From NCBI RefSeq assembly GCF_001547995.1, contig NZ_AP014690.1:1919001-1983000 (forward strand): DNA of 64,000 nt, written 5' to 3'. The DNA is from Asaia bogorensis NBRC 16594 (GTDB taxonomy: Bacteria; Pseudomonadota; Alphaproteobacteria; Acetobacterales; Acetobacteraceae). Positions 28,164 through 34,828 of this stretch are shown here, piece after piece (within the stretch, counting starts at the first letter, position 1; the number at the start of each line of letters is the position of its first letter). The position numbers and the translations under genes were made by a program. The notes under the pieces are model-generated. The model did not search any database, was not told the DNA's origin, and saw nothing but the letters and a program-made list of their open reading frames with translations.

Positions 28164-29093
28164 CTATTCCTTCATCTGCATGTCGGACATGGCGGACTGC
28201 ATGTGCATGACCTGACCCGTCGACTTGTCGATGACCATACCGTTGTTATACTTGGCCACGATGCTGTCGAAGAGGTTCGGCTGAACATGCGCGAAATACT
28301 TGACCGGTGCTGCTTCCTGCGGAGCGGCAACCTGCGGATAGTCGGCTGAGTCGAGCGAGTCAGACGCGCCCTTCACCTTTTCCACCCACTGGTTGAAATC
28401 CTCATCCGTCATGGCGAGCGTGCGGAACTTCATGTCAGAGAAGCCGCGACCCGTGTAGTGCGCTGCTTCGCCCAGGTAATCGCCCGGCGCACTGGCCAGA
28501 AGATGGAGCTGCGTCTGCATGCCAGCCATGGCATACACCTGCGAGCCCAGACGCGGGATGAAGAACGACGTCATGACCGAGTCAGAGGTGATGCGGAAGT
28601 TGATCGGCGTATTGACCGGCACCGCAAGCTGGTTGACCGTTGCAACACCCTGGTCGGGGTAGATGAACAGCCATTTCCAGTCGAGTGCGACAACTTCGAC
28701 ATTCAGAGGCTTGCGCCCTGCCGCCTCAGCCGAATGCAGCGGGCGATAGGGGTCGAGCGTATAGCTCGTGATGATCGCGATCGCGCCGAGGATGACGATC
28801 ACAACAGCCGGGACGCCCCAGACGAAGAATTCGATCTTCGTCGAGTGATCCCAGTTCGGCAGATACTCAGCCGATGTGTTGCTCTCGCGATACTTCCAGG
28901 CGAAGTACAGTGTCATGATGATGACAGGGATGACGATGCAGAGCATCACACCCAGTTCGATCAGGATGACGTTACGGTTCTGAAGCCCAACCGGGCCACG
29001 CGGATCGAGAAGATCGAGCGTACAACCGGAGAGGAAAAACGCCGGCGCCAGCGGCAGTAGCCGCCGCAACTTCGGCAAGAGTCTATTGTTCAT
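28164..29093 (-). CDS. cyoA: Cytochrome o ubiquinol oxidase subunit II
   Basis: A 309-aa lipoprotein subunit. The lipobox LSGC places the lipidated Cys at residue 24; two helices (about residues 42-62 and 85-110) precede a periplasmic cupredoxin domain with WKWLFIYPDQGVATVN. The CuA-binding cysteines of cytochrome c oxidases are absent, as expected for a quinol oxidase. It is first in the cyoABCD operon. Its upstream region of about 590 bp holds several symmetric motifs described separately. Confidence 0.97.
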   Translation of the reverse strand: MNNRLLPKLRRLLPLAPAFFLSGCTLDLLDPRGPVGLQNRNVILIELGVMLCIVIPVIIMTLYFAWKYRESNTSAEYLPNWDHSTKIEFFVWGVPAVVIVILGAIAIITSYTLDPYRPLHSAEAAGRKPLNVEVVALDWKWLFIYPDQGVATVNQLAVPVNTPINFRITSDSVMTSFFIPRLGSQVYAMAGMQTQLHLLASAPGDYLGEAAHYTGRGFSDMKFRTLAMTDEDFNQWVEKVKGASDSLDSADYPQVAAPQEAAPVKYFAHVQPNLFDSIVAKYNNGMVIDKSTGQVMHMQSAMSDMQMKE

Positions 29094-29227
29094 TGTCTGC
29101 CCCGCTCGTTGAACCGACCGTCAAGCTTTTTGGCTGCGCTACGCTGCCGCTGAACCCGACCACGGCTTGGTCGAACATGGCGACAACACCTTCAGGGGAT
29201 GTCATCCATCTCTCCTATTCCAGTGAA

Positions 29228-29297
29228 CGATACGTATCGCGCCGCAACGTGACATCATCATACGACCGGGATCGTATGAAGACGTAACGTTACGTCT
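29228..29297. promoter_or_regulatory. Cluster of three palindromes in the cyo leader
   Basis: CGATACGTATCG (29228-29239) is a perfect 12-bp palindrome. TCATACGA/TCGTATGA (29258-29265/29272-29279) is an 8-bp dyad with a 6-bp spacer. AGACGTAACGTTACGTCT (29280-29297) is a perfect 18-bp palindrome. The dyad extends as an imperfect inverted repeat (17 of 20 positions) from 29246-29265 to 29272-29291. It could be an operator array or an mRNA hairpin 135-205 nt before cyoA. Confidence 0.5.
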
Positions 29298-29480
29298 GCC
29301 GGTGGCTCTGAACGCTCCGACCACGACACGTCTCATCCTTGCCTCGCCTTGCTTCGGCAAGGCGATCGACCGGTTGATCAACCGCCTGCCTGCACGCTGG
29401 GCATCAGCGCCCAGCTCTGTTCTGTTGTTTCCGCCCGATTGGTCTGCAAAGCAAGCACTGATCAAGACTTTTCATGGGGC

Positions 29481-29507
29481 TGTTCACAATTTGAACACAA
29501 GTGTTCA
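29481..29507. promoter_or_regulatory. Three TGTTCA-type half-sites upstream of cyo
   Basis: TGTTCA (29481-29486), TGAACA (29492-29497) and TGTTCA (29502-29507) are arranged as overlapping inverted pairs. The second pair reads TGAACAC-AA-GTGTTCA, a 7-bp dyad with a 2-bp centre. They lie in the A+T-rich putative promoter area. Confidence 0.45.
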
Positions 29508-29581
29508 TCTTTAGAATCAGGGCTTTAGCGTACATTATCGCTTTTCTGCCGCAATTCATTGCGGATTTTTTAGATTCAGTT

Positions 29582-29622
29582 CAGACAGAAATAACAAGTT
29601 ATCCAGACCGAAATAGTCTGAA
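29582..29622. promoter_or_regulatory. Direct repeat with 22-bp period upstream of cyo
   Basis: CAGACAGAAATA (29582-29593) and CAGACCGAAATA (29604-29615) match at 11 of 12 positions, spaced by 22 bp (two helical turns). Between them ATAAC-AA-GTTAT is a 5-bp dyad, and TTCAGAC (29580-29586) is inverted as GTCTGAA (29616-29622). Confidence 0.45.
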
Positions 29623-29626
29623 TAAA

Positions 29627-29657
29627 CAAAAAGGGGCGTGCCTGTGACACGCCCCCT
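29627..29657 (-). terminator. Rho-independent terminator of the BI-1 family gene
   Basis: GGGGCGTG/CACGCCCC stem with a 7-nt loop and a minus-strand U-tract, about 30 nt after the stop of the gene ending at 29686. Confidence 0.9.
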
Positions 29658-29685
29658 CAAATAAACGATTGATCTAGATCAGTAG

Positions 29686-30468
29686 TCAGCTGTTGTTATT
29701 ATTACGAACGCCCATGAACTGGAGCAAAAAGGTGAAGAGGTTGATAAAGTTCAGATAAAGCGAAAGCGCATCGTAAACACTGCGCTTGCCCATTTCCTCC
29801 GGCCCCACATAGGACAGGTAGTATTGATAGGTTGCGCGGATACGCTGCGTGTCAAACGCTGTCAGCACCGTGAACAGCACCACACCGATCAGGCTCACCA
29901 TGAATGACATGGCGGGGCTGTGGAGGAACATGTTGACCAGACTGGCTATAACCAGACCGATAAGCCCCATGAACAGGAACGAGCCAAGCGAACTGAGGTC
30001 ACGGCGGGTCGTGTAGCCCCACAGAGACATCGCCGCAAACGTTGCTGCTGTAACGAAGAACGTGCTCGCCACGGAGGTATGGGTATAGACAATCAGAATA
30101 TTCGACAGGCTGGCGCCCATCACGGCGCAGAAAGCCCAGAACAAACCCTGCGCAGTCTGACGCGACAGGCGGTTCACACCGAATGACATGACCATGACAA
30201 AGGCCAGCGGGGCGAAGATCGTGAGCATTCCCAGCCCCGTCGGGCGGGTCAGAATGCCACCCGGCGTCAGAACCTGCTGGAAGAAGAGGTCACGCAACGA
30301 GGTTTCGGCTACGGCATATGCCACGAAACCGGTCACCACCAGCCCCGCTGTCATCCAGTTATAAACGCTGAGCATGTAGGCGCGCAAACCGGCATCGACC
30401 GTATCGACCCTGGCGGCTCCGGTGTTACCCGAGGTATTACCAGATCGAGAATTTGGAACGAAAGCCAT
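29686..30468 (-). CDS. Bax inhibitor-1 / YccA family membrane protein
   Basis: A 260-aa protein with seven predicted transmembrane helices after a Ser/Asn-rich, cytoplasmic N-terminus of about 30 residues. ALSLYLNFINLFTFLLQFMG at the C-terminus, FDTQRI in the last loop, and ATFAAMSLWGYTTRRDLSSLGSFLFMGLIGL (around residues 145-175) are typical of this family. Bacterial members (YbhL, YccA) act as calcium-leak channels or FtsH modulators; the role here is unknown. It has its own terminator and an AGGAAAGG ribosome site. Confidence 0.92.
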   Translation of the reverse strand: MAFVPNSRSGNTSGNTGAARVDTVDAGLRAYMLSVYNWMTAGLVVTGFVAYAVAETSLRDLFFQQVLTPGGILTRPTGLGMLTIFAPLAFVMVMSFGVNRLSRQTAQGLFWAFCAVMGASLSNILIVYTHTSVASTFFVTAATFAAMSLWGYTTRRDLSSLGSFLFMGLIGLVIASLVNMFLHSPAMSFMVSLIGVVLFTVLTAFDTQRIRATYQYYLSYVGPEEMGKRSVYDALSLYLNFINLFTFLLQFMGVRNNNNS

Positions 30469-32732: not shown

Positions 32733-34828
32733 CACCCGGCGGCCCGATCGGCACGGGCCTTGACCGACAGGAAACGTCTCGTGTGCAGAAGGCGTTTGAG
32801 CCGCCTGTGCTCACTGCCCAGCACCGCCTTGACCGCCTGCAGATCCTGCGCGAGGCAGCACAGCGCCCCGGTTTCACCCGGACCGTTGGGGCAGACCGTC
32901 ATGCCGATGTCATGATAGACCCCAAGAAGCGCTTGTCCCACCTTGATGAACACGGGATGACGCCCCTCCTCAAGGGCGAGATCGCGCAGCCGCCAGATCG
33001 CAGCAATACACTCGGTCTCCGCGCCGGCAGGGTCTCCAACGCCGATGATGAACTGACCCGTGCGCAGAAACGGGATACCGGCACGGCCATTGTCATTGAG
33101 GATCAGACCACTCGGGCGACGGGGGCCAAGCTCCTCGAGGGCGTGAGCCAGGTTGCGGTAGAGCGTCTCGCTCTCCTTGTCCCAGGGACGCACCAGAACG
33201 TGGCTTCGACGCAGCATCTGGATGACGGCGACAATGCCGAGCAGAGCCGAAATGCCAAGCGCCCAGCGAACGACCGAGGTATGCGCATCATAGATGAGCG
33301 ACCGCCACCAAGCATGGCCGAGATGATGGCGCAGGGCAAACAGCCCCACGCTGCCGAGGCTGATGATCCAGAGCGTGACCGGCGCCATAAGTGTCGGGCT
33401 GAGGGGTTCGGCAAAGAGCCGCGCTTTGCGATAATAGCACGACCGAAACGGCGCGATGAGGAACATCACCATCATCAGGCAAAGCGGAATCGCTAGAGGC
33501 CCCTGCCGCAGGATGACCAATGGAATGGCAACGCCCAATAGCGTAAGCGCCGCCCGCCATGCCGCAGTCACGCGCTGCGCCAGCCCTGCGGCGACCCCCA
33601 CAAGCATCACCCCGGTCAGGCACAAAAGGAATTCTGCCAGCTGCAACATGAGATGGGTGAATGGCGTGCCAAGGAGGGGCGCAGGAACGGCCACTGCGTA
33701 AAACACAAGCAATATGCCGGTCCCGGCCACCACACCTGTCGCGACCGTCACCGAAAAATCGGCCTCGGACTCACGCACCACCTGGCTTGGACGCCGTGCA
33801 AAAGCACCCGCTGCCGCCCCGCCGCGGCGCCGTGCCCAAGCCGCATCACCACGCAGAAAGAGCTCATGAACGGCAAACATGCCACCGGCCAGAAAGAGTG
33901 GAATGATGTAATAAAACAGGCGGAAGGTCAGAATAACGCCAAGGATCTGCGGGGTGGGCAGATAGGGCCCAAGCGCCAGAAGCATTGCGCCGTCGAACAC
34001 GCCCAGTCCACCCGGCACACTCGCGACCAGACCGGCAGTGTAGGAGGCAATGTAGATGGCGAGAAATGCCGGAAAGCCGATTGCCGCTTCGGGAGGCAAC
34101 AAGACATAGGCAATCATCGCTGTCATCGCCATGTCGGCGGCGCTGACAATGACCTGTGCCACAGCCACGCGAAAACCCGGCACGTCAAGCGTGTAACGCC
34201 AGATGCGCATCTGGCGATATCGCAGCGACACGCCGAGATAAGCGAGCACGCAGAGCCAGGCCGCTGCACCACCCAGTTGCAGGACCAGATGGGGCAGATG
34301 AGCCACAAGCGGGATATGGCCGGGCTCGAACAGGAACACGCCGCCTATGAGCGCCATCGCACCAAGCAGATAGGTGGTGGAACAAAAGGCAATGATCTGG
34401 GCGATACCGCCGGGCGACACCCCCCAATTTCGATAAAGCCGAAAGCGCACGGCAGCGCCGGAAATGGCCGAGCAGCCCAGGTTATGCGAGAGCACATATG
34501 AACAGAATGCTGCAAAGGCTGTGCGCAGGAACGACTGCTTTGACCCGATATGATAACAGGCCAGCCGGTCGTAGAATGACAGGATGAAGTAGGACAGGAA
34601 GGTGCAGCCCACGCCAGCCAGCAATGCCTGTGCCGGTATGGCCTGAAGAGCGCCCCTAATCTGGGCAAGAGAGAGCGATTTGAGCTCTTTCTGGATAACG
34701 TAGATTGCCGCCACCAGAAGAACGAGCCCCAGCAGCGCTGGAAGACGACAGGCCACGCGTCGCCAAGGGCTCGCAGGTTTGGCCTCGCCTTCCTCACAGC
34801 AGGGTGTTGTCTGTTCCTGAACGGTCAT
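32732..34828 (-). CDS. mprF: MprF-like lipid flippase / aminoacyl-phosphatidylglycerol synthase, short C-terminus
   Basis: A 698-aa protein. The N-terminal part (about residues 25-330) is the LPG flippase domain with eight helices (LSYFILSFYDRLACYHIG; SHNLGCSAISGAAVRFRLY; SVPGGLGVFDGAM). A second helical block follows (about residues 360-560), then a soluble DUF2156/GNAT region starting LILNDNGRAGIPFLRTGQFIIGVGDPAG. Typical MprF proteins are about 840-870 aa and contain two GNAT subdomains; here the protein ends about 130 residues into this region, so the second subdomain is missing. In full-length MprF it makes lysyl-PG from Lys-tRNA. The gene lies 38 bp after lysS. Confidence 0.85.
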   Translation of the reverse strand: MTVQEQTTPCCEEGEAKPASPWRRVACRLPALLGLVLLVAAIYVIQKELKSLSLAQIRGALQAIPAQALLAGVGCTFLSYFILSFYDRLACYHIGSKQSFLRTAFAAFCSYVLSHNLGCSAISGAAVRFRLYRNWGVSPGGIAQIIAFCSTTYLLGAMALIGGVFLFEPGHIPLVAHLPHLVLQLGGAAAWLCVLAYLGVSLRYRQMRIWRYTLDVPGFRVAVAQVIVSAADMAMTAMIAYVLLPPEAAIGFPAFLAIYIASYTAGLVASVPGGLGVFDGAMLLALGPYLPTPQILGVILTFRLFYYIIPLFLAGGMFAVHELFLRGDAAWARRRGGAAAGAFARRPSQVVRESEADFSVTVATGVVAGTGILLVFYAVAVPAPLLGTPFTHLMLQLAEFLLCLTGVMLVGVAAGLAQRVTAAWRAALTLLGVAIPLVILRQGPLAIPLCLMMVMFLIAPFRSCYYRKARLFAEPLSPTLMAPVTLWIISLGSVGLFALRHHLGHAWWRSLIYDAHTSVVRWALGISALLGIVAVIQMLRRSHVLVRPWDKESETLYRNLAHALEELGPRRPSGLILNDNGRAGIPFLRTGQFIIGVGDPAGAETECIAAIWRLRDLALEEGRHPVFIKVGQALLGVYHDIGMTVCPNGPGETGALCCLAQDLQAVKAVLGSEHRRLKRLLHTRRFLSVKARADRAAG

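Follow-up and report, generated by a model that had tools for sequence, protein, structure and literature searches.

A conserved, structured mRNA leader before the cyo operon of Asaia bogorensis and its likely role in translational coupling

The cyo locus and its symmetric elements

Acetic acid bacteria use cytochrome bo3 oxidase as a main terminal oxidase. In Asaia bogorensis NBRC 16594, the cyoA gene lies on the minus strand of the 64,000 nt stretch of DNA analysed here, referred to as the window, and the nearest named relatives of this organism are Asaia siamensis and A. lannensis. A second cyoA copy, at 642963-643691, is only 40% identical to the window cyoA and, since the latter is close to that of other acetic acid bacteria, we take the window operon to be the one designated cyoABCD-1 in an earlier report (PMC4596401). 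According to that report, the two cyo operons of Asaia shifted in opposite directions between culture conditions, and a mutated cyoABCD-1 is reported for A. astilbis (PMC4596401). We observed that cyoA is split into two overlapping matches (L014 / L025) in one draft genome (G007:C19:14314-15239). The control of cyo in Asaia is unexplained, and a structured leader would provide a testable post-transcriptional step ahead of the operon.

The first-pass annotation of the region had described three symmetric elements, including an 18-bp perfect palindrome and a 46-bp inverted repeat, and all are present where it placed them. The features concerned are as follows (helices are numbered as in the next section).

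28164-29093, minus strand: cyoA, quinol oxidase subunit II, 309 aa
29228-29239: 12-bp perfect palindrome, within the 3' strand of helix 4
29243-29265 and 29272-29294: inverted repeat with 23-nt arms, 83% complementary, 6-nt loop
29280-29297, minus strand: 18-bp perfect palindrome that shares bases with the 5' arm of helix 6; perfect in 2/10 relatives

Taken alone, the 18-bp palindrome is unremarkable and does not exceed chance, because 0.5 perfect palindromes of at least 18 bp are expected per 64 kb (Markov-1, 40 simulations) and two were seen; the longest in the window is a 20-bp perfect palindrome at 34197-34216. The 46-bp inverted repeat does exceed chance, one as good occurring once in the window and in 1/60 simulated windows. 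The RNA of the minus-strand stretch 29310-29094 folds with a z of -3.16 (1/200 shuffles as good). The symmetric elements are in fact parts of a larger structure that extends from about 29415 to 29094, past the limits first assigned to them, and the 'palindrome array' is the wrong unit, one palindrome lying in helix 4 and the other overlapping an arm of helix 6.

A covarying RNA structure on the cyoA strand

Alignment of the 330 nt before cyoA from nine Asaia genomes and G016 (ten relatives) revealed patchy conservation, with islands near 100% identity between stretches near 50%; the third codon positions of cyoA, by comparison, are 68.5% identical. The RNAalifold consensus for these relatives contains 103 pairs, 27 of them marked as two-sided changes. 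A separate count of the pairs gave 96.2% of pair cells paired and 28 pairs changed on both sides, where column shuffles that preserve conservation and gaps average 12.9 (0/500 as high) and a control in which the partner was slid by 1-3 columns yields 6-11. The consensus fold energy has a z of -13.75 (RNAalifold, 0/100 shuffles); for eight less redundant sequences the sense z is -14.4 (0/60) and the antisense z -3.2. The consensus pairs hold 193 G-U cells and 12 A-C cells, and the structure is therefore in the RNA of the cyoA strand. Within Asaia, the signal is strongest in the middle (z -10.9) and in the inverted repeat (z -8.7, each 0/300) and smaller in the first hairpin (z -2.9, 3/300) and next to cyoA (only z -2.7, 2/300), and columns 203-245 gave a z of -1.2 (38/300 shuffles as good). 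What is conserved in the leader is the pairing, and the alignments make the existence of a structured mRNA leader close to certain. The promoter-like motif and the elements of the leader, listed from upstream to downstream, are the following.

29427-29455, minus strand: promoter-like CTTGCT-N17-GGAAAC, predicted start near 29420
29094-29420, minus strand: structured 5' leader of the cyo mRNA, of predicted extent; structure supported by RNAalifold z and pair counts
29396-29415, minus strand: helix 1, the first hairpin; 7 pairs, 2 two-sided, 100% of cells paired
29356-29390, minus strand: helix 2, a fast-evolving hairpin; 10/14 pairs two-sided, 92.9% of cells paired
29339-29348, minus strand: the invariant GGCGAGGCAA, 5' strand of helix 3, which closes the core
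29323-29337, minus strand: helix 4, 5' strand; 8/13 pairs two-sided, 91.5% of cells paired
29298-29321, minus strand: helix 5, a hairpin; 5 pairs, 3 two-sided
29243-29294, minus strand: helix 6, the 46-bp inverted repeat as a 20-pair hairpin; 4/20 pairs two-sided, 96.5% of cells paired
29226-29240, minus strand: helix 4, 3' strand, which holds the 12-bp palindrome
29179-29189, minus strand: GUGUUGUCGCC, a contested strand with possible partners at 29339-29348, 29143-29150 and 29094-29101

The partner bases of the helix 4 strand that holds the 12-bp palindrome lie 83-111 nt upstream in the RNA. The stretch GGCGAGGCAA is conserved between unconserved flanks; its partner would be 29182-29189, or 29179-29186 in another register, and its pairing probability in the single-sequence fold is 0.00. 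One pair of helix 2 likewise reaches a probability of only 0.07 in the A. bogorensis single-sequence fold, and helices 3 and 7 (the latter described below) are without variation among the ten close relatives.

The promoter-like motif occupies a similar place (-361 to -380) in 12/12 Asaia-like sequences and suggests a transcript start near 29420, just before helix 1. A promoter-like CTTGCY-N17/18-GGATAA is also found before cyoA in several of the family's genera, and in 30/30 sequences of lineages g67 and g85+98 it takes the form CTTGCY-N18-GGATAA at -373 to -406. Overall, 53/72 sequences contain the CTTG/GGATAA motif, where shuffles average 10.9; this count is post hoc for a motif picked by eye, and because it was picked from the same sequences the evidence for the promoter is suggestive only. 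The motif is absent from L228-L230, several matches in g79 and the one match in g55 are scattered in position and probably false, and a scan with the sigma-70 consensus found no promoter.

Two further elements lie upstream. A TGTGnTCAAATTGTGAAC-like stretch at 29482-29499, which has dyad symmetry and is conserved in most of the aligned Asaia, is located upstream of the likely promoter and is possibly an activator site. A second hairpin, AGACTATTTCGGTCT at 29599-29625, comes after the neighbouring gene's terminator and has largely been conserved in Asaia. The only minus-strand terminator-like sites in 29000-29700 are 29658-29630, 29625-29599 and 29056-29040; a transcription attenuator was rejected, there being no intrinsic terminator between the leader and cyoA.

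For the core we built a covariance model, R1, whose score is 198 bits in the window, 72.6 in L011 (g23, outside the model) and 21 in L012. Under the stricter filters of both large genome searches, which lose weak matches, R1 has 11 clear members in 397 genomes of the family (nine in Asaia, the others in G016 and G030), each located before cyoA, and in 289 genomes of the class only A. bogorensis matches at E 0.01 or lower; six further R1 matches (E 0.08-0.84) were taken as chance. With the filters off, nothing credible was found for the core in L209, L210 and L228-L230 (g62, g104, g71, g73), and the match in g26 is weak. A leader search of plasmids gave no match, and at the loci of two 27-nt matches, in G332 and G406, R1 gave no score at E up to 5. 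In Rfam, nothing exceeded the gathering score for window positions 28900-29800 and 12 relatives; one match to SprD, outside the leader, and one to Chlorobi-1, in L010, were far below the cut-off and were rejected.

Leader reading frames and the two Shine-Dalgarno regions

The 3' part of the leader carries two successive ribosome-binding sites. The reading frames of the leader, with the helices and sites near them, are the following.

29202-29336, minus strand: candidate uORF1, 44 codons, crossing helix 6; uncertain
29083-29205, minus strand: leader ORF (uORF2), 40 codons, extending 11 nt into cyoA
29194-29216, minus strand: helix 7, a hairpin in which the AGGAGAG Shine-Dalgarno of the leader ORF and the ORF's start region are paired
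29143-29187, minus strand: helix P8* with an inner helix, both within the leader ORF; 7/14 pairs two-sided across genera
29099-29126, minus strand: helix P9*, a predicted hairpin that pairs the cyoA Shine-Dalgarno
29100-29107, minus strand: GAGCGGGG, the probable cyoA Shine-Dalgarno, from position and conservation

The start, open frame and overlap with cyoA of the leader ORF are conserved. In 16/16 genomes from seven genera, a start codon, either ATG or GTG, is found at -109 to -113 together with a Shine-Dalgarno-like sequence (AGAG being accepted as such). The frame it opens has 37-40 codons, passes the start codon of cyoA and stops at +4, +8 or +11; such an overlapping ORF arises in 14-25% of shuffled leaders. 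The frame ends at +8 or +11, just past the start codon, in 13/16 genomes including Asaia, and in the other three (g62 and both g71) its stop lies directly on the cyoA start codon. The deletion inside the leader ORF of g26, g62 and g104 is of exactly 3 nt, and only 5/1000 column shuffles of the ORF are free of stops; the alignment itself, once an inserted column had been removed, contains a single stop, in the final codon of L209. Conservation of the leader peptide is not beyond chance (52/300 and 121/500 in two tests), which fits translation for the purpose of coupling but also RNA constraint alone. The candidate uORF1 has an ATG at the same place in 12/12 sequences and the same end in only 7/12; its coding test gave 5/300 in 6/10 sequences, gaps or a displaced start having excluded L004, L007, L009 and L010.

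For the 3' part, the 140 nt before cyoA were aligned for 13 sequences of g1, g9, g23, g26, g62 and g104, leaving out L003 (near-identical to L002), L228 and L229. The fold has a z of -7.2 for the six lineages and -5.4 for all 13 sequences (0/200 each). In the consensus, 96.5% of cells are paired and seven pairs are two-sided against 1.4 in shuffles (0/500), all seven being located in P8* and its inner helix. This consensus replaced a first fold (helices 8-11), in which 87.0% of cells were paired, four pairs were two-sided and 49/500 shuffles were as high.

Pairing is conserved over both Shine-Dalgarno regions. Helix 7, which joins the AGGAGAG-like Shine-Dalgarno to a pyrimidine run just after the start of the leader ORF, has 97.1% of cells paired (13 sequences, six genera), and P9* has 96.6% (13 sequences); both show one-sided variation only. 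As an isolated 40 nt, the helix 7 region is not stabler than shuffles in 7/7 lineages and leaves the Asaia Shine-Dalgarno open. In single-sequence folds of nine Asaia at 30 C, the unpaired probability is 0.16-0.29 for the leader-ORF site and 0.24-0.26 for the cyoA site; special closure was absent, the leader-ORF site lying near the median of 5-nt windows in 8/9 Asaia and the cyoA site in 9/9. The case for closure of the Shine-Dalgarno sequences hence rests on conserved pairing and not on unusual stability, because the sites lie near the leader median. The free ensemble is dominated in 9/10 relatives by the pairing of GUGUUGUCGCC with the cyoA Shine-Dalgarno region; the core-closed state comes at a predicted cost of 2.7-10.2 kcal/mol, and the state with P8* and P9* is less favourable than the free ensemble by 3.6-9.3 kcal/mol in 10/10.

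A model of the 3' part (R2) matches directly before cyoA in 14/397 family genomes with E values of at most 1.8e-24, and two g71 genomes outside the model also match weakly before cyoA (E 0.001 and 0.005); in all 16 members at most 3 nt separate the match from that of cyoA. Matches elsewhere have E 3.3e-4 or weaker, although the best of them, in G311 (E 3.3e-4), outscores both g71 members; four of the loci (L245, L248-L250) have no CyoA match, and these matches were taken as chance.

Among the other lineages, g79 (L171-L183) has an overlapping ORF of 26-42 aa at the cyoA start in 13/13 sequences (shuffle rate 0.06), possibly a coupled leader ORF that arose independently; 8/13 of these ORFs begin MAAFG. 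In g55 (L184-L195), 11/12 sequences have an ORF of eight codons (MSEPRGVR or MSESRDVR) whose end falls on the cyoA start (shuffle rate 0.09). The single g73 genome has an overlapping ORF at -142 (shuffle rate 0.17), and an overlapping leader ORF was found in 0/30 sequences of g67 and g85+98 (shuffle rates 0.31 and 0.10). The ORFs overlapping the cyoA start in g79 and g55 suggest that the family has more than one case of translational coupling at cyoA. Fold tests of the leaders of these lineages (40 shuffles each, near-duplicates removed) gave z values of -3.7 for g79 (12/13 sequences; antisense -2.5), -2.7 for g85+98 (12/17 sequences; antisense -2.7), and -0.7 for both g55 (12/12 sequences) and g67 (11/13).

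Possible functions and relation to known systems

Our working model, which we hold with moderate confidence, is that the palindromes are parts of a structured cyo 5' leader of about 325 nt that controls the translation of cyoA by coupling. A multibranched core (helices 3-6) would stand upstream of two ribosome-binding sites, each of which can pair in a hairpin; the first would serve the leader ORF, which spans the next two hairpins, and the second would serve cyoA. Ribosomes that initiate at the leader ORF would open the hairpin covering the cyoA Shine-Dalgarno and terminate shortly after the start codon of cyoA, such that cyoA would be translated mainly by coupling. The core, through competition for GUGUUGUCGCC, would determine the frequency of initiation on the leader ORF. 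The leader would thus be off by default and be opened by ribosomes entering the leader ORF. Translational control by coupling is the most likely function, and control of the oxidase level by the leader is probable; we infer the coupling from the layout, and the transcript start, the translation of the ORF, the switching and any signal are proposals of the model. It speaks against the coupling model that the core was not found in g62, g104, g71 and g73 and only weakly in g26, and that g67 and g85+98 are without an overlapping leader ORF. The chance-level conservation of the peptide, the ordinary accessibility of both Shine-Dalgarno sites, the one-sided variation of helices 7 and P9*, the low stability of the isolated helix 7 region, the weak Asaia signal next to cyoA and the energy costs of the core-closed and P8*/P9* states also count against it.

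One alternative is that the leader is a riboswitch proper, in which the core would bind a small molecule and thereby free or hide the ribosome-binding sites. The multibranched, covarying core with its invariant stretches, and an invariant strand with mutually exclusive partners, are what such an RNA might show, but there is no Rfam match over the gathering score and no known ligand, and the core occurs in only 11/397 family genomes, before one gene; we regard this as unlikely. An RNA switch of a new class would combine both ideas: GUGUUGUCGCC would choose between closing the core, the leader-ORF hairpin and the cyoA ribosome-binding site, and the core would read a respiratory signal (quinone, haem, oxygen or metal) and set cyo translation via the coupled leader ORF. 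We consider this extension of the model speculative, and no likelier than the riboswitch.

It is also conceivable that the leader ORF encodes an arrest peptide or a small protein with a function of its own, the RNA structure being secondary. The start codon, frame and overlap kept in 16/16 genomes, the 3-nt deletion in g26, g62 and g104 and the scarcity of stop-free shuffles would agree with this, but there is no excess of conservative or synonymous change in the frame, and the residues after the start coincide with an arm of helix 7, and we think it improbable. We are equally doubtful that the structure mainly shields the mRNA from decay: stable hairpins do lie at the likely 5' end, but neither the near-invariant sequence just before cyoA nor the conserved pairing of both Shine-Dalgarno regions would be needed for protection. 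Processing of the leader into a trans-acting small RNA would suit a long, stable and conserved RNA with its own likely promoter, but the structure extends into the cyoA start, no minus-strand terminator-like site lies between 29599 and cyoA, and all 16 members of the 3' part adjoin cyoA, so that little weight can be given to it.

Weakest of all is the multi-site DNA operator, at which a transcription factor would bind the palindromes and regulate the cyo promoter: the 12-bp and 18-bp perfect palindromes do lie close together, but both are intact in only 2/10 relatives (L002 and L003), the arms of the inverted repeat vary while pairing is kept, with G-U pairs that a DNA site does not need, no other site in the genome lies within one mismatch of the 14-bp palindrome core (two further sites at two mismatches, against eight for a reversed control pattern), and the likely promoter is about 130 nt upstream of them. 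The first-pass annotation had suggested either such an operator or a regulatory mRNA structure, and it is the latter that is borne out, by the compensatory changes, the excess of G-U over A-C cells and a z of about -14; comparison with relatives upstream of cyoA likewise found the perfect palindromes mostly lost and the base pairing conserved.

A conserved structured leader thus spans two successive ribosome-binding sites before the cyo operon. No description of a structured cyo leader was found among the best-ranked literature matches, the main text of a paper on transcript starts in Gluconobacter oxydans (PMC5756330) contains neither 'cyo' nor 'ubiquinol', and 'cyo' is absent from PMC6191907; the leader has apparently not been described before. 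Like the riboswitches and orphan RNA motifs of Rfam, it is a conserved, covarying 5' leader RNA near ribosome-binding sites, but it differs from them in being narrow in range, confined to a single gene and without an Rfam match. RNA thermometers of the ROSE and FourU types place an imperfect hairpin over the Shine-Dalgarno, and the cyo leader has such a hairpin by prediction as well. A thermometer was nevertheless rejected, the predicted unpaired probability of the A. bogorensis leader-ORF site changing only from 0.22 at 20 C to 0.23 at 42 C; among 16 sequences, predicted accessibility rises clearly only in L229 (0.32 to 0.67) and L012 (0.29 to 0.45).

The nearest described arrangement appears to be the leader of Escherichia coli iraD, which has a translationally coupled leader ORF controlled by CsrA (PMC5574718). 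CsrA control was rejected for the cyo leader, the A. bogorensis genome having no match to csrA (PF02599), which 3/14 control genomes match. The iraD leader ORF differs in that its stop overlaps the start codon of the main gene, a layout found here in only 3/16 genomes, and a large conserved core like that of the cyo leader is not mentioned for iraD in the abstract of PMC5574718. In both systems, a short leader ORF overlaps the start of the main gene and the main Shine-Dalgarno lies in RNA structure, for cyo by prediction, and by extension the start of the leader ORF may be the point of control in cyo as in iraD.
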